Origin: Desulfovibrio sp. 86
Lineage (GTDB): Bacteria; Desulfobacterota; Desulfovibrionia; Desulfovibrionales; Desulfovibrionaceae
DNA length: 64,000 bases
Direction: 5' to 3'
NCBI RefSeq assembly: GCF_902702915.1
Contig: NZ_LR738849.1
Coordinates: 2,744,001 to 2,808,000 of the forward strand
Shown here: positions 1 through 30,734 of the stretch, one piece after another
Layout of the letters: every line of letters starts with the position of its first letter
Position numbering within the stretch: the stretch's first letter is position 1
Notes under the pieces: model-generated
Database searches by the model: none
Told to the model about the DNA's origin: nothing
The model's input: the letters and a program-made list of their open reading frames with translations, nothing else
Translations under genes and position numbers: made by a program

Positions 1-768
1 ATCTTTGTGCTGGGTTTTGCGGCGCTGATGCTGTTCTGGTTCTCCGCCAGCAATCTCGGCAAGGGAAGCCTTACTGCGGCATCGGACACGCAAAGCAGCG
101 CCGACGGCACAGGCCAGACTCACGGTTGCCCGCGCCCCGAACACCATGGCACGAGCGAAAACCGCTGGCTGGCGCTCCTTGTGGACGTGCTGCTGCAACG
201 CCGCCTGTACCGCGAATCGCGCACACGCTGGGCCATACACGCCCTGATCTTCTTCCCCTTCCTCATCCGTTTCAGCTGGGGCATGCTGGCCCTGCTGGGC
301 TCGCATCAGGCGGCCGCAGCGGAATGGCCCTGGCTTATGCTGGCCAAGGACTGGGCCCCCACGGCCTTCATCTATGACGTCAGCGGTCTTGCCTTGCTGG
401 CGGGCCTTGTGTGGGCCGCCCTGTTCTGGCGCAAGGAAAAGCTGGCGGCAGCCAATGCGCCGCGACACGACTGGCCCGCCCTGTGGCTGCTTTTGGCCAT
501 CACCGTCACCGGCTTTGTGCAGGAAGGCATGCGCATCGCCCTTACCGGCATGCCTGACGGCAGTGAGTGGGCCTTGGCGGGCTACGCGCTGGCCAGCCTG
601 TTCGGCCAGATGACTCCTGCGGAACTGGCCCGCGTGTATGGCTGGGGCTGGTACGCGCACGCCATCGTTACGGCGGTCACCGTGGCCTATATGCCCTTCA
701 GCCAGTTGCGCCACATTGTCACTACCCCGGTTTTTCTGCTTGTCCAAACCCTGAGGGGCCGTCACTAG
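1..768 (+). CDS. HdrE/NarI-like membrane cytochrome b subunit (5' end missing)
   Basis: The reading frame is open from base 1, so the start lies outside the window. The visible 255 residues hold several hydrophobic segments (around residues 5-15, 78-100, 120-140, 158-172 and 218-235) and a soluble charged loop near residues 20-55. The architecture resembles the NarI/DsrM/HdrE family of di-haem cytochrome b subunits that pass electrons between menaquinol and a cytoplasmic Fe-S subunit. Candidate haem ligands are histidines within the membrane segments, but I cannot fix which ones. It ends 26 bp before the lipoate-binding protein gene and that gene is followed at once by an HdrD-like protein, so the three probably form one complex. 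The exact subfamily is an inference. Confidence 0.72.
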   Translation: MFVLGFAALMLFWFSASNLGKGSLTAASDTQSSADGTGQTHGCPRPEHHGTSENRWLALLVDVLLQRRLYRESRTRWAIHALIFFPFLIRFSWGMLALLGSHQAAAAEWPWLMLAKDWAPTAFIYDVSGLALLAGLVWAALFWRKEKLAAANAPRHDWPALWLLLAITVTGFVQEGMRIALTGMPDGSEWALAGYALASLFGQMTPAELARVYGWGWYAHAIVTAVTVAYMPFSQLRHIVTTPVFLLVQTLRGRH

Positions 769-794
769 CCCCGGAACCACATAAGGAGACTGTT

Positions 795-1220
795 ATGGAA
801 ATTGCCGGCTACAATATGCCCGAGGAACTGTATTACGACCAATACCACTTCTGGACCCGTGTTGACGGCGACGAACTGGTCATCGGCATGGACGACTTCG
901 CTGAAAAGCTGGCCGGGCAGATAGTGTTTGTGCAGTTGCCCTTTGTGGGCAAGGCCGTCACGGCGGGCAAGAAGTTCGCCAAGGTGGAGTCCGGCAAGTG
1001 GCTGGGCACGGTCTACAGCCCGGCGGACGGCGAAATAAGCGCCGTCAATGAAGAACTGGAGGCCAACCCCTCCCTCATCAACAGCGACTGCTATGGCAAG
1101 GGCTGGATGTACAAGATCAAGCCCGTGGACAAGAGCCAGATCAATACCCTCATCCACGGCGGCAAGGACGTTATCGAAGCCTGGCTGCTGGAGGATATCA
1201 AGAAATTCAAGAAGGACTAA
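795..1220 (+). CDS. GcvH-like lipoate-binding protein
   Basis: This 141-residue protein has the glycine-cleavage H-protein fold signature: an N-terminal HFWTRVDGDELVIGM stretch and the lipoylation site ESGKW, with Lys68 as the predicted modified residue. The start at 795 follows an AAGGAG ribosome site. No glycine-cleavage T, P or L gene lies near. Instead it sits between a cytochrome b subunit and an HdrD-like Fe-S subunit (3 bp to the next start), and a lipoate-assembly operon follows. That resembles the LbpA proteins of sulfur-oxidising sHdr systems, which carry lipoate as a redox/sulfur carrier rather than serving glycine breakdown. The redox-carrier role is an inference from context; ordinary GcvH is the alternative. 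Confidence 0.88.
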   Translation: MEIAGYNMPEELYYDQYHFWTRVDGDELVIGMDDFAEKLAGQIVFVQLPFVGKAVTAGKKFAKVESGKWLGTVYSPADGEISAVNEELEANPSLINSDCYGKGWMYKIKPVDKSQINTLIHGGKDVIEAWLLEDIKKFKKD

Positions 1221-1223
1221 ATC

Positions 1224-2495
1224 ATGCGTCAGTCAGCATTCAGCATCAGGCAGCGTATGGCCCTGGACGCCTGCACCGAGTGCGGCCAGTGCCTCACCGT
1301 GTGCCCGGCCGTGGCGGCCTCGGGCGATGCGGACCTCTCGGCCCAGGTGCGCATGCACAATCTGAAAAAACTGCTGCGCGACCGCAACTTCTTCTGGAAG
1401 GCGCTCAACGAAATGCTGGGCCGGGAGCCTCTGGCCACGCCGCAGGTGCTCAAGGACTATGGCCTCTCCGTTTTTCGCTGTTCACTCTGCGGCGATTGCG
1501 AAGAGGTCTGCCCGGCCGGTCTGCCCCTCAAGGACATGTGGCTGTCCCTGCGTGAGGAACTCTCGCGCACCGGCGATGCGCCCGACAAGATCCGCATGAT
1601 CCGCGCCAACCTCGACGGCAGCCACAACGTCTTTGACGAGGATAACGACGAGCGCGGCGACTGGGTGGACGACATGCGCAAGCCCCCCAAGGGCGGTTGC
1701 CTGAAGGATTCGGCCGAGGTGGTGTACTTCACGGGTTGCGTGGGCGCCTACTTTCCGCTGGCCCAGAAGATCCCCATGGCCTTTGTGGAAATACTGGATG
1801 CTGGCGGCGTTGATTTCACCATCATGGCCGGCGACGAGTGGTGCTGCGGCTTTCCTTTGCAGGGTTCTGGCCAGAGCGAAGGGCTGCCCGCCATCATCGC
1901 CCACAACGTGGCGGCGGCCAAAGCTCGCGGTGCGCGCAAGGTGGTGTTCACCTGCCCGTCCTGCTACCAGATCTGGCGCGAAGCCTATCCTCCGGAATTC
2001 GAACTGGTCCACGCCTCTGAAATGGTGGCCCAGCTCGTTCTTGAAGACAGGCTCCCCCTGGGCGAACTGCCCATGACCGTCACGTATCACGACCCTTGCG
2101 ACCTTGGACGCGGCGGGCGTGTTTTTGACGAGCCGCGCGCGATTATGGCCCGCATCCCCGGCCTCACTCTGGTGGAGATGGAGCATAACCGCGAGCATTG
2201 CCTGTGCTGCGGGGGCGGCGGCAACCTCGAGATGATCGATCCCGATCTTTCCGCAGCCATGGCCAAACGCAAGGTCGAGGAGGCCGTGGCCACAGGTGCG
2301 GAGGCCATTATCACCAACTGTCAGCAGTGCGTGCGCACCATGATGACCTACGCCAAGCGTAACAAGGTCAGCATAGATGTCATGGATATGAGTCAGCTTG
2401 TGGCCAAGTCCATAGAGGCTGGCCGCAAGGCTCTGGCTGTGGCCGAAGCCGCCAGGACGGCGCAGCCCGAGAGCGCCGCAGGAACGCAGGGATAA
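1224..2495 (+). CDS. HdrD-like (Fe-S) protein with two CCG domains
   Basis: The 423-residue protein starts with two [4Fe-4S] ferredoxin motifs: Cys17, 20, 23, 27 and Cys86, 89, 92, 96. Two cysteine-rich CCG domains follow, the first with WCCGFP and CPSCY and the second with HDPC, CLCCGGGG and NCQQC. This is the domain order of HdrD, DsrK and GlpC, in which the CCG cysteines hold an unusual catalytic [4Fe-4S] cluster that acts on disulfides or carries electrons. With the upstream cytochrome b it makes an HdrDE-like membrane pair, and the lipoate protein between them is a likely dithiol/disulfide partner. The C-terminus is Ala-rich. It is the last gene before a terminator hairpin. Confidence 0.9.
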   Translation: MRQSAFSIRQRMALDACTECGQCLTVCPAVAASGDADLSAQVRMHNLKKLLRDRNFFWKALNEMLGREPLATPQVLKDYGLSVFRCSLCGDCEEVCPAGLPLKDMWLSLREELSRTGDAPDKIRMIRANLDGSHNVFDEDNDERGDWVDDMRKPPKGGCLKDSAEVVYFTGCVGAYFPLAQKIPMAFVEILDAGGVDFTIMAGDEWCCGFPLQGSGQSEGLPAIIAHNVAAAKARGARKVVFTCPSCYQIWREAYPPEFELVHASEMVAQLVLEDRLPLGELPMTVTYHDPCDLGRGGRVFDEPRAIMARIPGLTLVEMEHNREHCLCCGGGGNLEMIDPDLSAAMAKRKVEEAVATGAEAIITNCQQCVRTMMTYAKRNKVSIDVMDMSQLVAKSIEAGRKALAVAEAARTAQPESAAGTQG

Positions 2496-2806: not shown

Positions 2807-4504
2807 ATGAAAGCGCAGTGGCGACTGTTGGACTTGCCGCCCATGACGGCGGCGGAAAACATGGCTCTGGATGAAGTGCTGGTGGAGGTGCGCGGAAGCG
2901 GACACTCCAGGGATACACTGCGTTTTCTGCAGTTCCGTCCGGCAACGGTGCTGGTGGGTTTTCATCAGTCCCTGCAGGAAGAAGTGCGCCTGTCCTACTG
3001 CCGTGAGCACGGCATTGACGTGAACCGGCGCATCACGGGCGGCGGCGGCCTGCTTTTTGACGAAAACCAGCTCGGCTGGGAAATCATTTGCGCCAAGTCC
3101 TTTTTCGGCGTGGGCATCCCCAACGCCAATTTGTTCCGCCGCCTGTGCGAGCCCACCATCACAGCCCTGCGCGGCATGGGCATTGACGCGGCCTTCAGGC
3201 CCCGCAACGACATTGAGGTGGCGGGCCGCAAAATTTCGGGCACGGGCGGCACGGACTGCGAGTCGGCCTTTTTGTTCCAGGGCACGCTGCTGGTGGATTT
3301 TGACATTGAAACCATGCTCAAATGCCTGCGCGTGCCTGTGGAAAAACTCAAGGCCAAGGAAATAGATTCCATCAAAAAAAGAGTGACCTGCCTTGCCTGG
3401 GAATTGGGCCGCGTGCCCGAAACCAGGGAAGTGAAGCGCAACCTTGTGGAAGCCTTTGAGCAGCACATGGGCATCACGCTCAGGCTTGGCGGCCTCACGG
3501 CCGAAGAAGAGGATCTGCTGTCAAAGAAGCTGCCGCATTTCCAGTCGCAGGAATGGATAGACATGGTGCGCCCCACCTATGAGAAAACAGAGGTGGTGCA
3601 GGGCGCGCGCAAGTCTCCTTTCGGCCTTGTGCGCGTGACCATGCAGTTGAACATACCGCGCAAAACGCTCAAGAATATGTATATCACCGGCGATTTCCTG
3701 TCCTTTCCGTCGCGGGCGCTTTTTGACCTTGAGGCCGCCCTGCGCGGCCAGCCCCTGGACGGCGACCATTTGTGCGGCATTATTACTGATTTTTTCAAGG
3801 CTGGCAAAATTGCCATACCGGACATGGGTGCGGAAGATATCTGCATTCCCCTGCGCATGGCTCTGGAAAAAGCCGCCATCGCCCGTCACGGCATCCCCCT
3901 TGAGCACTGCAACCGCATCTTCACCACCAACGGCAGTTTTGACGAAGTGCTGGCGGCAGGGCCACAGGCGCTGCTTTTGCCGTACTGCGCCAAACTCAAG
4001 GACTGCGACCTGCGCTTTACCCGGGCGTGCCGCGCCTGCGGCGAATGCTCTGTGGGCGACGCCTGGACCTTGGGGCGCGAGCGCAAGTGGCGCACGGTCT
4101 GCATCACCAGCTTCGAGCATCTCATGCAGGAGCTGGAAAAAATGAAGGGGCAGGGCGTGTCCGCCTTTATCGGCTGTTGCTGCCAGCCTTTCTACATCAA
4201 GCATGTGGAGGATTTCGACCGCCTTGGCCTGCCCGGCATTCTCATCGATATCGAAAATACCACCTGCTATGACCTTGACCAGAGCGAAGCCGCCCACAGG
4301 GGAGAATTCTCCAGCCAGACCATGCTGAACATGGCCTTGCTGCATGACATCCTTCGGGTTGCCGGACAGGCCGAGTTAGCCGGACAGGCTGCAGGGGCCG
4401 GGCAGCCAATCATGACGGAAGGCGCGGCAGGCATAGCGCCCGGTGTCACGCCCGGTGTAACGGCTGACGCGGAAAAAGTGGGGGGGACGCATGCTGCATT
4501 ATGA
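2807..4504 (+). CDS. Lipoate--protein ligase-like protein fused to DUF116 domain
   Basis: The N-terminal ~250 residues are a lipoate/octanoate:protein ligase domain: RRITGGGGLLFDE matches the RRxSGGGxVxHD loop, and GRKISG carries the catalytic lysine. Residues ~255-350 resemble the LplB accessory domain, so the protein is of the sLpl(AB) kind. From about residue 385 it continues into a DUF116-like domain with many cysteines (PYCAKLKDCDLRF, CRACGEC near 408, GCCCQPF near 455) that probably binds a metal or cluster. At 565 residues it is far longer than LplA (about 340). It overlaps the next gene by 14 bp, starting a four-gene operon. Predicted role: octanoyl or lipoyl transfer to the H-like protein upstream. 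Confidence 0.88.
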   Translation: MKAQWRLLDLPPMTAAENMALDEVLVEVRGSGHSRDTLRFLQFRPATVLVGFHQSLQEEVRLSYCREHGIDVNRRITGGGGLLFDENQLGWEIICAKSFFGVGIPNANLFRRLCEPTITALRGMGIDAAFRPRNDIEVAGRKISGTGGTDCESAFLFQGTLLVDFDIETMLKCLRVPVEKLKAKEIDSIKKRVTCLAWELGRVPETREVKRNLVEAFEQHMGITLRLGGLTAEEEDLLSKKLPHFQSQEWIDMVRPTYEKTEVVQGARKSPFGLVRVTMQLNIPRKTLKNMYITGDFLSFPSRALFDLEAALRGQPLDGDHLCGIITDFFKAGKIAIPDMGAEDICIPLRMALEKAAIARHGIPLEHCNRIFTTNGSFDEVLAAGPQALLLPYCAKLKDCDLRFTRACRACGECSVGDAWTLGRERKWRTVCITSFEHLMQELEKMKGQGVSAFIGCCCQPFYIKHVEDFDRLGLPGILIDIENTTCYDLDQSEAAHRGEFSSQTMLNMALLHDILRVAGQAELAGQAAGAGQPIMTEGAAGIAPGVTPGVTADAEKVGGTHAAL

Positions 4505-5555
4505 CGTGCTGATTGTGGGCGCTGGCCCCGCCGGTTCCAGCGCCGCCAGAGCCGCCGCGCAGGCCGGAGCTTCCGTGGCCCTTGTGGAGCGCCGCAGTGC
4601 CGTGGGCGTGCCCGTGCGCTGCGCCGAATACATACCTGCCATGCTGGTGGGGCAGGCTGACGTGGGCAAGGACTATATCGCTCAGGCCACGCTTGGCATG
4701 CGCAGTTACCTGCATGGGCACCGTATTCAGGACATGGCGGCTCCGGGCTATGTCATCCACCGTGACAAATTCGATCAGGCGCTGGCCAGCGCCGCTGCGG
4801 ATGCCGGGGCGCATATGCTGCTGGGGCACTGCGTTCTTGGCCGTGAAGGCGGGCAGGGCAGTTGCGTCATGTTGTCCACGCCCGCCGGAGGGATGACCAG
4901 CATAAAGGCCAAGGTGGTCATCGGGGCGGACGGCCCGCATTCGCGCGTGGCCCAATGGGTCGGGCTGCCCAATACCCATTGCCTGCCGTCCATACAGGTG
5001 CGCCTGCCCCTGCGCAAAACCCTGGAACATACCTGCATATATTTTGATGAAAGCATCACTGCCGGCTATGCCTGGCTTTTTCCCAAGGGCGACGTCGCCA
5101 ATGTGGGGCTCGGCATGCTGCGTCAAAGGCATACGCCGGGGCTGCGCCGGGTGCTGCGGCGTTTTGTGCGCGGTCTGTCGGCCCTTGGGCTGGTGCGCGA
5201 CGAACCCCTGGCGTTCACGGGCGGCTGGATACCCGCCGGGCCTCCCAGGCCCTGCGTATCTGGCGACATCCTGCTGGCCGGAGACGCGGCGGGGCATACC
5301 CATCCCATAACAGGGGCGGGCATCTTTCAGGCCGTCATGGGCGGGCAGATGGCTGGCCGCTGGGCGGCCCGCGCCGTTCGGGAGGACCGCCTGGCTGTTT
5401 TGCAGGGCTACGCGGACGAATGGAACGACTTTTACGGCGACGTTCTGTCCCACGCCTACAACCGCAGGCTGGACTGGGAAGGGCATAACGGCGTGCTGGA
5501 CCAGTCCATAAACAGATTCTGGATAGGATTCAGGGAATACTATGCGGCCTCTTGA
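4491..5555 (+). CDS. lipT: FAD-dependent oxidoreductase, LipT/geranylgeranyl-reductase-like
   Basis: A 354-residue flavoprotein. The N-terminus has the FAD dinucleotide fold (GAGPAGSSAARAAAQAG followed by a glutamate), then GADGPHSRV and, near residue 265, LLAGDAAGHTHPITGAGI, the order seen in geranylgeranyl-reductase-type flavoproteins. It overlaps the ligase gene before it and the radical SAM gene after it by 14 bp each, so translation is probably coupled. FAD proteins called LipT accompany the sLpl(AB)/LipS1/LipS2 lipoate pathway, where they may supply electrons to the radical SAM enzymes. The name rests on this gene neighbourhood; the reaction is not shown by the sequence. Confidence 0.8.
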   Translation: MLHYDVLIVGAGPAGSSAARAAAQAGASVALVERRSAVGVPVRCAEYIPAMLVGQADVGKDYIAQATLGMRSYLHGHRIQDMAAPGYVIHRDKFDQALASAAADAGAHMLLGHCVLGREGGQGSCVMLSTPAGGMTSIKAKVVIGADGPHSRVAQWVGLPNTHCLPSIQVRLPLRKTLEHTCIYFDESITAGYAWLFPKGDVANVGLGMLRQRHTPGLRRVLRRFVRGLSALGLVRDEPLAFTGGWIPAGPPRPCVSGDILLAGDAAGHTHPITGAGIFQAVMGGQMAGRWAARAVREDRLAVLQGYADEWNDFYGDVLSHAYNRRLDWEGHNGVLDQSINRFWIGFREYYAAS

Positions 5556-6501
5556 CCACTGGGACGACGTACAGCTGGAGCAGGCCCGTGAGCTTTCGTG
5601 GGCGCGGCACGGCAAAAAAATACTCTTCTACCTGCCAGGCATGTTTGTGCGTGACGGCGTGCAGGGGCAATACCCCGCGCTTTCCGTCACTGGCCGCGAC
5701 TGCGCGCAGCACTGCGCCCACTGCGGCGGCGCGCTGCTGCAGAGCATGCCCGATGTGAGCAAACCCGGCAGCCTGCTGGAAAAGTGCAGGGCGCTTGAGG
5801 CGCAGGGTGTGCAGGGCGTGCTGCTTTCCGGCGGCTGTGACGGCCGGGGGCGGGTTCCGTGGAAGAATTTCATCAACGCCATTGCCGAAGTAAAGCGGCA
5901 GACAGGGCTTTTTGTGTCCGTCCACTGCGGCATGCTAGATGCGGCCACCGCACGAGATCTGAAAAGCGCCGGGGCGGATCAGGCCCTCATTGACATTATC
6001 GGCAGCGCTGAAACGTATTACAAGGTCTATCATCTTGAAGACGGCCCGGAAATGCTGGACAGCAGCCTTGATGCGCTGGCCCGGGCAGGGCTGCCTGTGG
6101 TGCCGCACATTGTGGCCGGACTGCACTTCGGCAAGCTGCTCGGCGAAAGCTGGGCTCTGGAAATCGTTGCCCGGCGTCCGCCAGCCCTGCTGGTCATCGT
6201 GGCCTGCATGAACCTGCCCGGCACGGACATGGCGGGCATGACCCCGCCAGGAGCGCGCGAGGTCTGCGGCGTCATTTTGCGGGCACGGGAACTCATGCCG
6301 GATACGGAAATAAGCCTGGGCTGCGCCCGCCCCCGCAAGGGCGCCGCCGATCTGGAAGAACTGGCCCTGCTGGCCGGGGTCAACCGCATGGCTCTGCCCT
6401 CACAGGAGGCCGTGGCCATGGCCTCCTGCATGGGGCTTGAGACGCAGTTTCGCAAGACCTGCTGCTCGGTGCGTCTGGGCGAGGGCACGGCTGGCTGGTG
6501 A
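5542..6501 (+). CDS. Radical SAM protein, LipS-type lipoyl synthase component
   Basis: The radical SAM cluster motif CAQHCAHC (Cys54, Cys58, Cys61) is present in a 319-residue protein. A glycine-rich GVLLSGGCDGRG follows, as in radical SAM enzymes that bind SAM. It overlaps lipT by 14 bp. Together with the second radical SAM gene 91 bp downstream it matches the LipS1/LipS2 pair, two biotin-synthase-like enzymes that jointly insert sulfur at C6 and C8 of protein-bound octanoate in place of LipA. I cannot decide from sequence alone which of the two is LipS1. A further cluster could be bound by Cys residues near the C-terminus (CC in KTCCSVR). Confidence 0.82.
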   Translation: MRPLDHWDDVQLEQARELSWARHGKKILFYLPGMFVRDGVQGQYPALSVTGRDCAQHCAHCGGALLQSMPDVSKPGSLLEKCRALEAQGVQGVLLSGGCDGRGRVPWKNFINAIAEVKRQTGLFVSVHCGMLDAATARDLKSAGADQALIDIIGSAETYYKVYHLEDGPEMLDSSLDALARAGLPVVPHIVAGLHFGKLLGESWALEIVARRPPALLVIVACMNLPGTDMAGMTPPGAREVCGVILRARELMPDTEISLGCARPRKGAADLEELALLAGVNRMALPSQEAVAMASCMGLETQFRKTCCSVRLGEGTAGW

Positions 6502-6592
6502 AAGGCCGGTACGGGTAGGATATCCGCTCACGTACGCCACGTGACGGGCATATGGAAAAAACGTCTGCTTGAGGGCAGTCAGCGAGGAAAAT

Positions 6593-7687
6593 ATGAGCCA
6601 AGCCACCGAATTGAAAAGTCAATGTTCCCCCAGTCAGGGTCTTTGCGGGCAGGAACCCGCGCCGGAAAGCCCCGATGTCGTGCGCATGAGCCTTGCCGCC
6701 GCCATGACGCTGGACTTCGCGCCGGGCAGCTTTTACCGCAATGCCTGCCTTTCCTGCGTCAATCTTCTTCTGACCTACCGCTCGGGATGCGCGGCCCGCT
6801 GTTCCTACTGCGGCCTTTCAGGGGCCAAGGAAAAGCGCCCCATCAAGAGCTTCATCCGCGTAAGCTGGCCTTCCTTTACCGTGGATGAAATCATTGCGGG
6901 CATTTTGCGGCGTCAGGAGCGCGTCAAGCGCATCTGCATATCCATGCTTACCAACAGCCGCGCCCCGCGCGACGCCACGGACATCTGCCGCCGTTTGCGC
7001 GCGGCCGTGGACATTCCGGTTTCCCTGCTCATCTCGCCGACCATCCTGACGCGCCGCCATCTGGAAGAATTCCGCGACGCCGGAGCGGACAAGATCGGCG
7101 TGGCCATCGACCTCGCCACGCCGGAGCTCTTCGCCCGGTACCGTGGGGCCGGGGTAGGGGGGCCGCACTCCTGGGAGCGCTACTGGCAATGCCTGGAAGA
7201 AAGCCTGGATGTTTTCGGCAAGGGCATGGCCGGTTCGCACTTTATGGTCGGCATGGGCGAAACCGAAGAAGAGATGAGCCGCGCCATGCAGCGTGTGCAT
7301 GACATGGGCGGCAACACGCATCTGTTCTCGTTTTTCCCCGAGGGAGGCTCGCCTCTGGCCGAGCATCTGCCGCCGCCCATTGACCAGTACCGCCGCATCC
7401 AGCTGGCGCGCTGGCTCATCGACCACGATCATGCCCGCGCCGAGAACTTCACCTACAATCAGCGCCGGGCCATCACCGGATACGGGCTTCCAAAGGACGC
7501 GCTGGACGGTTTCATCAACGCTGGCGAGCCCTTCCGCACCTGCGGCTGCACGGGCCGCGACGGCGAGGTGGCCTGCAACCGCCCCTACGCCAATTCGCGC
7601 CCCGGCCCTGGCATACGCAACTATCCTTTCAAACCGGAAGAGGCGGACGTGCGCCATATCCGCCTGCAAATGGGCTTGCCTTTGTAA
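6593..7687 (+). CDS. Radical SAM protein, second LipS-type lipoyl synthase component
   Basis: A 364-residue protein with the radical SAM motif CAARCSYC (Cys66, Cys70, Cys73). The start at 6593 follows a GAGGAA ribosome site. The C-terminal part has TCGCTGRDGEVACNRPYANSRP-type cysteines that may hold an auxiliary Fe-S cluster serving as sulfur donor, as in biotin-synthase-like lipoyl synthases. Gene order (ligase, FAD protein, radical SAM, radical SAM) supports a role in lipoate assembly on the upstream H-like protein. A hairpin terminator follows within 10 bp, so this is the last gene of the operon. Confidence 0.82.
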   Translation: MSQATELKSQCSPSQGLCGQEPAPESPDVVRMSLAAAMTLDFAPGSFYRNACLSCVNLLLTYRSGCAARCSYCGLSGAKEKRPIKSFIRVSWPSFTVDEIIAGILRRQERVKRICISMLTNSRAPRDATDICRRLRAAVDIPVSLLISPTILTRRHLEEFRDAGADKIGVAIDLATPELFARYRGAGVGGPHSWERYWQCLEESLDVFGKGMAGSHFMVGMGETEEEMSRAMQRVHDMGGNTHLFSFFPEGGSPLAEHLPPPIDQYRRIQLARWLIDHDHARAENFTYNQRRAITGYGLPKDALDGFINAGEPFRTCGCTGRDGEVACNRPYANSRPGPGIRNYPFKPEEADVRHIRLQMGLPL

Positions 7688-26492: not shown

Positions 26493-27833
26493 TTATGGCG
26501 CTTGGCGATGATCGGCAGGATTATCGGGAGCGGGCGTAACGGGCGGGATGCACCGCCAGCCCAAAAGCGGCATCAGAAGCGGAAAAAATATAAAGGGGAT
26601 GCTTGCTGTTGTGGCGCCGAGTATGGAAAGCGGCAAGGTCAGGGCCACGTTCCAGGGGATAAGCACCGGGAGCAATACGGCGGTGTTGGAAATCATTTGG
26701 GCAAAGGCGGTTTTTTCCCGTGGCGTGCGGTAGAATTTTTGCTGAATCTTTGCGGTAAATAATATTGCCAGGGTCTGGTTACAGGCAATGGCCGAAGCCG
26801 CCAGGCTAACCACTGCGTTGGTCAGGTATGCGCCCAGGTGTGGAAACAAAAGGGCGATGCCGCGCTCTGCTCTGGTCAGAAAGGCGGAGCGTATCAGAAT
26901 TTCGATGGTGCTTGCCGAAAGCAGGACGATAATGATGGGTGCGGCCATAGAGCAGATGCCGCCGCCTGCAAAGAGCCGCGCCAGTGAATCGGTACCGTGG
27001 ATTTCGTATCCCCACAGGATGCCGTGCAGTGCTTTGACAGGCGGTATGCCCTGGAGCGTGGTGGCAAGGACAATGGCTGTCAGGGTGCTGCAAAGAAAAA
27101 TATAGCGCGCGCGGATCTTGAACGTTGGCCCGAATATAACCACCAGGGCCGGAACAAGCGTGGCCGGCGTGAGGGCGAAGGCCCCGCCAAGTTGCTCCGC
27201 CAGGTCGGTATGCGGCGAGATTGGCGGCATGAACCACGAAAGCAAGCCGTATGCAAGGCTGCATATGACAATGACCGGCAAGGCGTCACGCATATTGCGG
27301 CGCATATTGTTTTCTACCAGGGTGTCGGTGACGCTTGCCACCAGTTGAGCGCTGGAGGACAGGGGCGAGCCCCTGTCGCCCACATACGCCCCGGCAATGA
27401 TGGCGCCGGCAAGCATGGGCATATCCGTGCCGGAGCTGCTGGCAATGATCATGATGGGTATGCCAAGCACGCTGATGGTGCCCACAGACGTGCCGATGAG
27501 CATGGAGATAATGGCGGAAAGAATGAACGAACCCGGCAAAAGCAGCGGGGGCGAAAGAAAAAGCAGGCCGTGATAGACAAGATAGGCAATGGTGCCCGAT
27601 TCGCGCCATGCCGCTGTGAGCGCGCCCACGTAGAGCAGCGTTTCCGCCACGGCAAATGAATTGCGCGCGCCTTCAAAGGCATGGCGCGCGACTGTGTTGC
27701 ACGGCGTCCCTTGTTTGCAGGCCAGGGCCGCAGAGAAGGCCAGCCCGGCCAGCAGCGGGCAGGCAATCCATATTTCCAGTCGTATGCTGATAAAAAGTAT
27801 GGCTGTAAAAAGTATGGCTGCGCTGTAGATCAT
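26493..27833 (-). CDS. NhaC-family Na+/H+ antiporter
   Basis: A 446-residue membrane protein with about a dozen hydrophobic segments. GTSVGTISVLGIPIMIIA and GAIIAGAYVGDRGSPLSSSAQLVASVT are typical NhaC motifs carrying the ion-binding aspartate. I start it at the ATG at 27833; the frame remains open to 27905, and neither start has a strong ribosome site. A terminator-like hairpin separates it from the GlcF-like gene upstream. It may maintain sodium and pH balance, or exchange organic acids as some relatives (malate/lactate antiporter MleN) do. Confidence 0.83.
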   Translation of the reverse strand: MIYSAAILFTAILFISIRLEIWIACPLLAGLAFSAALACKQGTPCNTVARHAFEGARNSFAVAETLLYVGALTAAWRESGTIAYLVYHGLLFLSPPLLLPGSFILSAIISMLIGTSVGTISVLGIPIMIIASSSGTDMPMLAGAIIAGAYVGDRGSPLSSSAQLVASVTDTLVENNMRRNMRDALPVIVICSLAYGLLSWFMPPISPHTDLAEQLGGAFALTPATLVPALVVIFGPTFKIRARYIFLCSTLTAIVLATTLQGIPPVKALHGILWGYEIHGTDSLARLFAGGGICSMAAPIIIVLLSASTIEILIRSAFLTRAERGIALLFPHLGAYLTNAVVSLAASAIACNQTLAILFTAKIQQKFYRTPREKTAFAQMISNTAVLLPVLIPWNVALTLPLSILGATTASIPFIFFPLLMPLLGWRCIPPVTPAPDNPADHRQAP

Positions 27834-27959
27834 AGTGGTTGGTGCAGGTGTTAAACGGAAAAAGACTTCACCGCAACCAATGCGTGTACGCAGTGGCACA
27901 AACATACTGGCATTAGAACGAAAAAGAATGATGCCTTACTGAAGTCCTGAGGGCAAGTA

Positions 27960-28000: not shown

Positions 28001-29284
28001 TCAATTGGCGCACCCCATCGCCTTGGCGATGATCTGGGCTGTATGCAGAACACGGACGTTGGAGAGTCCGTTGCGGGAAAGGCCGTCTTCTATGTGCATG
28101 CGGCAGGCAGAGCACCCCGTGGCCACAATTTCCGCCTCTGTAGTCCGAATATTGGCTATTTTGTCGTCGTTAATCTCGCGCGAGAGATCATAGTGCACAG
28201 CGCTGAAAGTACCTGCGCAACCGCAGCAGCGGTCGGCATTTTTCATTTCACGCAGCTCAAGGCCGGGAATGGCGGTGAGCAATTGCCGTGGTTGCGCCGA
28301 AACGCCCATGCCCCTGACCAGATGGCAGGGGTCATGATAGGTGACGGACCTCTCCATAATGAGCAGATTTTTGATTTCGCCAAATTTTACAATAAAATCA
28401 GAAAAATCGTAGACATGCTCCTTGAGGCGCTCCCATGATTCGCGGTAGGGGCTGTCATCAAGCACCATGCCGTATTCGTGGTTCAGCGCCGTGCCGCAGG
28501 TAGCGCAGGCGGTGATGACGGCCTCCACGCCCGCGGCCGCCAGAGCTTTAACGTTCATTTCCGCCAGCGTCCGCCCGGCGGCAAAGTCGCCGGAGGTTAT
28601 GGCGGGCGTGCCGCAGCAGCCGATGGCATTGGGCAGCACAACCTCCATGCCCAGGGCCGCCAGCACGTTAACCACGGCACGGCCTGCCTCCGGATAAACA
28701 TAGGTCAGCATGCAGCCTGGAAAAAAGGCCACGCGCATTTTTTTTGCGCCACGCGGGGCCGTCAGGGGAGTGACCCGCGAACGCAGGGGCCGAGAAGAAA
28801 GTTTGGGAATAAGGCGACGTTTGTTCAGTCCTGCCGCAGGGATGGGCAGGCGTGAAAAGCTGCCCGGCCCTTCAAGCGCGTCTTTGAACAGCAATTTTTG
28901 AAACGGTGCTCCCATGCGCAGGCAAAAATCAAAAATACGCCGGTACCCCAGTGCCGTGAAGGCTATGCGTTTGGCAAGGGGCAGGGGGGTATGGTCTGCC
29001 ACAGCGCGACGGAAGCGCATAAACAATTCAGTGGTGCGGATATTGGAGCTGCAGGCTGTTTCGCAGGCTTTGCAAAGGGCGCAGCGGGTTATGGATTCTG
29101 CCAGGTTGGCGTTGGGTTCAATACCCCCTTCAGCCATAATACACAGTTGCAGCAATCTGCCACGCGAGCAGGCCGCCTCTGCTCCGACCTTGTCGAAAAC
29201 AGGGCAGACAGCCTGGCAGGCGCCGCAGTATGTGCATGCCGATGCCGCTTTTCTGATGTTTTCAAGCTCTGATGCGCTAACCAT
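28001..29284 (-). CDS. GlcF/LldE-like (Fe-S) protein of 2-hydroxyacid dehydrogenase
   Basis: A 427-residue protein with two ferredoxin motifs (CTYCGACQAVCP and CALCKACETAC) and two CCG domains (FFPGCM...GCCGTP and YHDPCH...CCGCAG...CSACRMH). It is the electron-accepting partner of FAD-linked GlcD/Dld dehydrogenases. Its start overlaps the stop of the GlcD-like gene by 8 bp. In Desulfovibrio such pairs feed electrons from lactate or other 2-hydroxyacids to the menaquinone pool. Confidence 0.9.
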   Translation of the reverse strand: MVSASELENIRKAASACTYCGACQAVCPVFDKVGAEAACSRGRLLQLCIMAEGGIEPNANLAESITRCALCKACETACSSNIRTTELFMRFRRAVADHTPLPLAKRIAFTALGYRRIFDFCLRMGAPFQKLLFKDALEGPGSFSRLPIPAAGLNKRRLIPKLSSRPLRSRVTPLTAPRGAKKMRVAFFPGCMLTYVYPEAGRAVVNVLAALGMEVVLPNAIGCCGTPAITSGDFAAGRTLAEMNVKALAAAGVEAVITACATCGTALNHEYGMVLDDSPYRESWERLKEHVYDFSDFIVKFGEIKNLLIMERSVTYHDPCHLVRGMGVSAQPRQLLTAIPGLELREMKNADRCCGCAGTFSAVHYDLSREINDDKIANIRTTEAEIVATGCSACRMHIEDGLSRNGLSNVRVLHTAQIIAKAMGCAN

Positions 29285-30671
29285 GAATATACTCCCCGAA
29301 TATACAGCCAGGGTTCATGATGTTTTTGGGGTCAATGGCCTTTTTTATGCTGATGAGGCAATGAAGCTGGGCCTTGCCGAGCTGCCGCTCCAGGTAGTGG
29401 ATTTTTTCGTGCCCGACGCCATGTTCAGCGGAAACGGTGCCGCCGATGGATATGATATATTCGTGGAATTCTCCGCGCAGCTGTACGGCACGCTGGTGCT
29501 CCTCATCGGTGTTGAACAAAATGCAGGGGTGTACGTTGCCGTCGCCAGCGTGCCCATAGCAGCCGGTCACGATGTTGTGCTTCTTTCCCAATTCTTCAAG
29601 CTTGCGCAATACATCCGCCAGACGGTTGATTGGGGCGGCGGGGTCGCCGCTGAGGCGCGAGCGGGCTTTTTTGTACAGGGCGCTCAGACTCATGCGGCGC
29701 GCCGTCCAGATATGTGCGGCCTCTTCTGCGGTGGCGGCAATGCGTATCTGCACAGCGCCCAGGCGTTCGCACACGGTACGGATTTTTTCCGCCTGCGCAT
29801 CCAGGGTATTGTTGTAGCCGTCCACCTCTATAAGCAGCATGGCAGCGGCATCCACGGGAAAGCCCTGATGTGTGGCCTCCTCCACCGCGCGGATGAGCGT
29901 GTTGTCCATAAATTCCATAATGGAAGGCACCACGCCGCTGACCATAATTTCAGAAATGGCGTGGGCGGCCTTGTCCACATCGGCAAACGCGGCCAGCATG
30001 GCTTTTTTGCCTTCAGGCAGCGGGATAAGCTTCAGGATTATTTCCGTAATAACGCCAAGGGTTCCCTCTGAGCCCGTAAAAAGCTGGGTAAGGTTGTATC
30101 CGGTGACGTCCTTGATGCACTTGCTGCCGCAGTGGATGATGTCCCCCGTAGGCAGCACCACCTCAAGCCCTGCCACATAGCTCTTTGTGGTGCCGTATTT
30201 GACGCACTGCAGTCCCCCGGCGTCGGTAGCCACATTGCCGCCAATGGTGGAATAGGCGAAAGAGGCGGGGTCGGGCGGGTAAAACAGGCCATGGGTTGCG
30301 GCGATTTTTTTGATGTCGGCCGTAACTGCGCCCGGCCCTACAACCGCAGTGAGGGTGGCGGGGTCGATGTCAATTTTTTTGAAGTGCGTCAGAGAAAGAA
30401 TGATGGTTCCCGGCATGTCGATGGTGGTGTTGTCGCTGAGGCAAGAGCCCTGACCGCGCGGGATGACGGGTATGGCGTGTTCATAGGCAAGACGCATTAT
30501 CTGCGATACTTCCGCGCTGGTGTGGGGCTGCACTGCCAGAACCGGCAGGTTGGGCGACAGCTCGCGCGAGCGAGCGTTAAAAAGATAACAGACCAGTTCT
30601 TCTTTGTCTGAAACGACATTTTCCGAGCCTACTATATCTGAAACAGCTTTAATAATCTGCGCGTCTTGCAT
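29277..30671 (-). CDS. GlcD/Dld-like FAD-dependent 2-hydroxyacid dehydrogenase
   Basis: A 464-residue FAD-binding oxidase. PRGQGSCLSDNTTIDMPGTIILSL is the PCMH-type FAD domain, with GNVATDAGGLQCVKYGTTKSYVAGLEVVLPTG further on, and the C-terminal oxidase domain holds CYGHAGDGNVHP and SAEHGVGHEK. The ATG at 30671 lies 7 bp after AGGAG. Family substrates are D-lactate, glycolate and other D-2-hydroxyacids. Placement downstream of korABCD suggests that the 2-oxoacid it makes is the next enzyme's substrate. Confidence 0.9.
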   Translation of the reverse strand: MQDAQIIKAVSDIVGSENVVSDKEELVCYLFNARSRELSPNLPVLAVQPHTSAEVSQIMRLAYEHAIPVIPRGQGSCLSDNTTIDMPGTIILSLTHFKKIDIDPATLTAVVGPGAVTADIKKIAATHGLFYPPDPASFAYSTIGGNVATDAGGLQCVKYGTTKSYVAGLEVVLPTGDIIHCGSKCIKDVTGYNLTQLFTGSEGTLGVITEIILKLIPLPEGKKAMLAAFADVDKAAHAISEIMVSGVVPSIMEFMDNTLIRAVEEATHQGFPVDAAAMLLIEVDGYNNTLDAQAEKIRTVCERLGAVQIRIAATAEEAAHIWTARRMSLSALYKKARSRLSGDPAAPINRLADVLRKLEELGKKHNIVTGCYGHAGDGNVHPCILFNTDEEHQRAVQLRGEFHEYIISIGGTVSAEHGVGHEKIHYLERQLGKAQLHCLISIKKAIDPKNIMNPGCIFGEYIHG

Positions 30672-30734
30672 GAACTGCTCCTGCAATATGATGTTATGGC
30701 TGCCGGAGGCATCGACCCCGGCAGCCCGGTTGCG

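Follow-up and report, generated by a model that had tools for sequence, protein, structure and literature searches.

A three-gene core at the start of the window

The DNA analysed here, called the window throughout, is a stretch of 64,000 nucleotides from Desulfovibrio sp. 86 (G000:C1:2744001-2808000) lying inside a single-contig genome of 3,464,070 bases that also carries dsrA (649 bits). It opens with three successive forward-strand open reading frames (ORFs), which encode the end of a membrane cytochrome (CytCB, 1-768), a GcvH-like lipoate-binding protein (LbpA, 795-1220) and an HdrD-like iron-sulfur protein (CCG, 1224-2495), and comparison with related genomes supports the view that these three form a conserved unit. 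An initial annotation had described a GcvH-like protein with an intact lipoylation site flanked by a cytochrome b subunit and a double-CCG protein of HdrD type, and this description holds: the 141-residue LbpA matches Pfam GCV_H with an E value of 1.2e-36, and its predicted lipoylation site, Lys68, lies within an ESGKW motif (codon 996-998).

Two samples underlie the counts that follow. A CCG-first sample consisted of 20 loci picked from the matches of a phylum search, with LbpA not used as bait, while a scan for LbpA over one genome per species yielded the best 80 of 514 relatives; these 80 loci are not 80 genomes (L142, L143 and L147 belong to one metagenome-assembled genome), and several belong to genomes already found through CCG, so the two counts overlap. 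ESGKW is present in all 20 LbpAs reached through CCG, and Cys99 is kept in only 17 of these 20 sequences, so it is not essential. In an alignment of 80 rows, made up of 79 loci and the protein from the window, Lys68 is found in 78, a rate biased by scan patterns that included Lys68 and the Cys99 stretch, and the two misses (L075 and L112) are wrong-frame ORFs.

Several observations support the conclusion that LbpA is distinct from the glycine-cleavage H protein. The genome carries a complete gcvT-gcvH-gcvPA-gcvPB set with its own GcvH about 150 kb from the window (near G000:C1 2588858-2593556), and neither GcvT, GcvP nor GcvH was found on either strand in the 80 LbpA loci, in agreement with the initial claim that no glycine-cleavage genes lie nearby. 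In a tree of 48 rows (39 of them different), a 100/100 branch separates 32 LbpA rows from 16 rows of GcvH proteins, some linked to glycine-cleavage genes and some not; the LbpA label was assigned by the ESGKW motif, some LbpA genes entered twice via two loci, and 2 of 30 loci yielded no ORF. NCBIfam models point both ways: LbpA scores 111.8 bits against the gcvH equivalog TIGR00527, under its cut-off of 115.85, and 132.8 bits against the PRK01202 subfamily, over its cut-off of 117.

The cytochrome b subunit initially annotated at 1-768 does contain a NarI-like domain (Pfam Nitrate_red_gam), but it is only the C-terminal part of a protein cut by the window edge. Analysis of upstream ORFs places the full CytCB gene at L009:10783-12768 (661 residues), starting 1217 bases before the window, with an N-terminal part comprising a signal-like helix and 11 CxxCH motifs, matched by Pfam as cytochrome c7/c3 repeats, ahead of the membrane domain. 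CytCB thus unites an 11-haem cytochrome c and a NarI-like cytochrome b in one polypeptide. Among 53 CytCB ORFs uncut by a contig end, the number of CxxCH motifs is 11 in 30, 6 in 11, 10 in 8 and another value in 4. His486, His626 and His644 are kept in 52-53 of 54 alignment rows, enough for at least one haem b. The AlphaFold model of a homologue (L071, 89% identical) has a mean pLDDT of 62 and is reliable in the membrane part only, for which Foldseek returned EtfD first (E 5.1e-5), followed by NarI with E values of 0.1 or worse. Because the membrane partner is an 11-haem c/b fusion rather than a plain HdrE-like cytochrome b, a periplasmic cytochrome pool appears at least as likely a partner for CytCB as quinone.

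The 423-residue CCG has two 4Fe-4S sites and two complete CCG (noncubane cluster) motifs (Pfam CCG, Fer4). Its eight 4Fe-4S cysteines and ten CCG-motif cysteines are kept in 62 or 63 of 63 rows, the sole exception for the ten CCG-motif cysteines being a wrong-frame ORF (L104). Its AlphaFold model has a pLDDT of 91.3, its top Foldseek matches include EtfD and HdrB, and by both sequence and fold the closest solved structure is EtfD (9ojn). In EtfD, Thr539 and His583 make the clusters non-catalytic, in contrast with Hdr, according to passages of PMC13083937; the aligned positions in CCG are Cys208 (63/63) and Ser246 (61/63), on which basis we predict that CCG resembles Hdr and can react with disulfides. 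An EtfD-type non-catalytic wire was rejected for CCG on these same cluster ligands. Membership in the DsrMK, Tmc, Hmc and Qmo systems was likewise rejected, with scores far under the NCBIfam equivalog cut-offs: CCG scores 88.8 bits for DsrK (cut-off 400), 76.5 for TmcB (735) and 61.8 for HmcF (750), and the in-window part of the cytochrome 31.1 for QmoC (300). The membrane HdrDE-like pair proposed at first stands for the HdrD-like protein, with its Hdr-type cysteines; its partner has a NarI-like b domain, but one fused to an 11-haem cytochrome c.

The gene order recurs well beyond the source genome. Of the 80 loci, 73 carry CCG no more than 6 kb from LbpA, and CCG starts at most 400 bp 3' of LbpA in 67 of the 75 with room, meaning those whose contig reaches far enough for the neighbour in question. 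For CytCB the same 6-kb limit holds in 65 of the 80 (53 of 62 where at least 3.1 kb of upstream DNA exists). Most LbpA loci appear to belong to Desulfobacterota or Deltaproteobacteria, and one to Bryobacterales. From the other direction, the phylum search found CCG matches in 64 of 395 genomes at E <= 1e-70, paralogues included, and LbpA stands beside CCG in 16 of the 20 chosen CCG loci (exceptions L058, L034, L067 and L070). These neighbours recur where CCG identity is 41-66%, outside the closest Desulfovibrio, so the association exceeds chance. In two of the exceptions (L058:6468-9500; L034:964-3502, on a short contig) CytCB is followed by CCG and no LbpA was found in the locus. Within the family, a close CCG (E <= 1e-60) occurs in 5 of 149 genomes, the source genome included, making the distribution patchy. 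The loci of G040, G114 and G102 keep the order from the E2 and E3 genes through LipS2.

Lipoate assembly and dehydrogenase genes around the core

The three genes noted initially are the conserved core of a larger set that the initial annotation left out. After a 311-base gap, CCG is followed on the same strand by four adjacent genes (2807-7687) that make up an sLpl(AB)-LipS1/S2 assembly set and resemble the pathway of that name described in passages of PMC10332631. The first encodes an sLpl(AB)-like lipoate-protein ligase (2807-4504; Pfam LplA-B_cat, with NCBIfam lipoyltrans/LplAB models under their cut-offs) fused to a C-terminal DUF116 domain, to which its family assigns no role. Next comes an FAD protein of the geranylgeranyl reductase family (4491-5555; TIGR02032, 204.7 bits, cut-off 158.8), which we name LipT by gene context, lipT adjoining lipS1/S2 in the lipoate-assembly operons described in the same source. 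The last two are radical SAM lipoyl synthase components of the LipS1 type (5542-6501; NF053742, 210.5 bits, just below the cut-off of 230) and LipS2 type (6569-7687, start codon uncertain; NF053743, 213.5 bits, below the cut-off of 270). Across the sample, 63 loci have room for a lipoate ligase 3' of LbpA and 46 of these carry one, and LipS1 and LipS2 are both present in 15 of 80.

The glycine-cleavage genes whose presence just upstream of base 1 had been raised as a possibility are not there; the upstream DNA instead carries, on the same strand, genes for E1 alpha, E1 beta, an NAD-kinase-domain protein, an acetoin reductase (TIGR02415, 364 bits, cut-off 304), an E2 with a lipoyl domain, a dihydrolipoamide dehydrogenase (E3) and a LipB-LipA fusion. 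The NAD-kinase-domain gene, from its position, is presumably AcoX. The E1 models score as pyruvate dehydrogenase type, and the cluster probably encodes an acetoin or 2-oxoacid dehydrogenase, the acetoin assignment resting on the reductase and the AcoX-like gene. Two E2 acyltransferase genes lie in this cluster (L009:32-883 and L009:5792-7159), and they account for two of just three Pfam Biotin_lipoyl matches that the genome contains. Two lipoate-assembly routes thus flank the module within about 8 kb, the LipB-LipA fusion (L009:8822-10555) and the sLpl(AB)-LipS1/S2 type.

Other genomes place a different dehydrogenase beside the same core. In G027, which belongs to another genus, the order is CytCB-GlcD-CCG_A-LbpA-CCG-sLplAB-LipT-LipS1-LipS2, CCG_A being a second CCG protein that accompanies GlcD in place of E1-E2-E3. 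CCG_A is present in 37 of the 80 loci (30 also with GlcD), E1/E2/E3 in 22, neither in 21 and both in none. The CCG tree, in which the wrong-frame row L104 was kept and context labels depend on contig ends, requires at least four changes of CCG_A context on well-supported branches. Some of these changes may reflect short contigs, but this does not account for L137 (E1-E2-E3) beside L134-L136 (CCG_A), nor for L109 and L138, which have no CCG_A in 10 kb of upstream DNA, beside L107 and L139, which have it.

Further neighbours were seen beside individual copies: a lactate-racemase-type gene (L117), TRAP transporter genes (L136, L115 and L118) and a pyruvate:ferredoxin-oxidoreductase domain (L099). 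At L118:5208-11492, TRAP transporter genes, E1 alpha, E1 beta, LbpA and the ligase follow one another with no E2, CCG or CytCB found nearby, an arrangement in which LbpA might take the place of E2. The window itself holds a second GlcD-CCG pair (28001-30686, - strand), its GlcD 37% identical to that of the G027 module and its CCG protein about 26% identical to CCG; a Na+/H+-antiporter-family gene (26493-27905) adjoins it. Between CCG and the ligase gene lies a dispersed repeat of about 125 bases (2552-2676) with at least 39 further genome copies at 77-84% identity (40 matches scored); as RNA it folds well (z -3.0). Rfam gave zero matches to this repeat or elsewhere in the window, a sigma-70 scan gave 3 sites against 2.5 expected, and a search of a plasmid collection returned only matches under 60% identity.

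A lipoyl protein as a possible electron carrier

We lean, at slightly better than even confidence, towards a reading in which CytCB, LbpA and CCG together transfer electrons across the membrane by thiol/disulfide chemistry, with the lipoyl group on LbpA Lys68 as the mobile carrier on the cytoplasmic side. The adjacent ligase and LipS1/S2 would lipoylate LbpA, and a neighbouring dehydrogenase would then reduce the lipoyl disulfide, here through E2/E3 of the acetoin or 2-oxoacid dehydrogenase cluster and in other genomes through GlcD and CCG_A. The noncubane clusters of CCG would re-oxidise dihydrolipoyl-LbpA, and electrons would travel on via 4Fe-4S clusters and the haem b of CytCB, reaching that protein's periplasmic haems (or menaquinone) without involving NADH. 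Flow could also run in reverse, with a periplasmic reductant reducing lipoyl-LbpA. In favour of the proposal, the dehydrogenases are exchangeable while the core is kept, and EtfD is the top Foldseek match of CCG as well as of the CytCB membrane part; the Hdr-type cluster ligands of CCG, the eleven CxxCH motifs seen in 30 of 53 CytCB ORFs and the frequent lipoate ligase 3' of LbpA also speak for it. The currency that such differing dehydrogenases share is electrons, which favours a dithiol lipoyl-LbpA that links the dehydrogenase to the membrane conduit. The broader proposition, that lipoyl-LbpA is a dedicated respiratory carrier taking electrons from interchangeable 2-hydroxyacid, 2-oxoacid and acetoin dehydrogenases, with an Hdr-type protein and the undecahaem c/b cytochrome conducting them across the membrane, is more tentative, and we would place it a little short of even.

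Other observations weigh against this electron-carrier proposal. Neither dehydrogenase type accompanies the 21 loci counted above, in part because of short contigs; the four CCG loci named earlier have no LbpA nearby, two of them with CytCB; and LbpA occurs with neither CCG nor CytCB in L118 and L140, so the parts of the module are not obligate partners. The energetics are also awkward in the GlcD class. The lactate/pyruvate couple has a potential of about -0.19 V. That of lipoamide, given as -0.29 V in passages of PMC6067878, lies below it, so outward flow would be uphill at the lipoyl step, and this class may depend on tight coupling, on flow in the opposite direction or on a covalent adduct. 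LbpA could, moreover, carry a covalent intermediate in place of electrons.

This last possibility, in which CCG (and CCG_A) would process a sulfur or acyl intermediate bound to the lipoyl arm, as proposed for the LbpA of the sHdr system, strikes us as unlikely but deserving of attention. It has that precedent (passages of PMC6067878), LbpA in the GlcD class is surrounded by two HdrCB-type proteins, reminiscent of the paired HdrCB sets of sHdr, and in L118, where E1 alpha-beta stands directly before LbpA and the rest of the core was not found, LbpA next to E1 could accept an acyl group directly. The chemical difference between the adjoining dehydrogenases (GlcD and E1-E2-E3) is, however, easier to reconcile with an electron step in common than with a common bound intermediate, and no HdrA was among the ORFs identified in the window's cluster. 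We regard as improbable the idea that LbpA is a lipoate relay or assembly platform, handing octanoyl or lipoyl groups to E2 proteins like the GcvH of Bacillus subtilis while CCG and CytCB feed electrons to lipoyl synthesis. Although lipoate genes flank the unit on both sides and E2 genes belong to the same cluster, LbpA-CCG persists in the GlcD class (37/80), where 10 kb of same-strand sequence yielded no E1/E2/E3 gene, and persists while LipS1 with LipS2 occurs in so few loci. Least credible of all is that LbpA is a glycine-cleavage H protein in an unusual place: for all its GCV_H match and its PRK01202 score, the genome has a separate, complete glycine-cleavage system with its own GcvH, the 80 loci hold no Gcv genes, and LbpA falls on its own side of the 100/100 branch, and we reject this membership.

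To our knowledge, the electron route from lactate, acetoin and similar substrates to the membrane in sulfate reducers and syntrophs is not settled. The module is a concrete candidate for such a route from organic-acid breakdown.

Relation to known lipoate and Hdr-type systems

In passages of the literature cited here, the lipoyl arm of lipoate systems carries bound intermediates (acyl, aminomethyl and, as proposed, sulfur). Should the electron-carrier proposal be correct, lipoate would have a redox-only role as a respiratory carrier connected to a membrane cytochrome, the complex would be a new transmembrane one in sulfate reducers and related bacteria, and LipS1/S2-type lipoate assembly would gain a client outside sulfur oxidation. 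A limited literature search, with supplementary tables outside its scope, found no description of the CytCB-LbpA-CCG unit; passages of PMC6067878, PMC2702500, PMC3949148 and PMC13384644 contain none, and the main text of PMC10332631 has no word beginning 'desulfo'.

The module resembles the sHdr-LbpA system, as described in passages of PMC6067878 and PMC10332631, in pairing a GcvH-like single lipoyl protein with Hdr-type proteins and an sLpl(AB)-LipS1/S2-type operon. It differs in having one fused HdrD-like CCG and a membrane cytochrome where sHdr has a soluble hdrC1B1A-hyp-hdrC2B2 set, and in its dsrA-bearing host. LbpA is 42.6% identical to an E. coli GcvH-like match, whereas four sHdr LbpAs are given in PMC6067878 as 25.6-34.5% identical to E. 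coli GcvH. A canonical sHdr gene set was rejected for the window cluster, which has a single fused CCG and no HdrA among the genes identified (other loci were not searched for HdrA by homology).

Methanogen HdrDE likewise combines an HdrD-like protein bearing two complete CCG motifs with a NarI-like membrane cytochrome b; in the module, that cytochrome b is fused to eleven c-haem sites and the proposed disulfide substrate is a lipoyl protein. The Tmc, Hmc and DsrMKJOP complexes of sulfate reducers comprise a periplasmic multihaem c, a membrane cytochrome b and a cytoplasmic CCG protein. The module shares this arrangement, except that c and b form one polypeptide and that a gene for a lipoyl protein is interposed. 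Mycobacterial EtfD (9ojn; passages of PMC13083937), which Foldseek ranks first for CCG as well as for the CytCB membrane part, is by comparison a single chain with non-catalytic clusters and Thr539/His583 at the positions of Cys208/Ser246. LbpA itself shares the GCV_H family and the position of the lipoylated lysine with the glycine-cleavage H protein but differs in its motif (ESGKW versus ES[VAT]K), its neighbours and its separate clade. The parts belong to known families, and what looks new is their combination, in which a transmembrane thiol/disulfide complex of the HdrDE/Tmc kind is joined to a lipoyl protein as its proposed partner.

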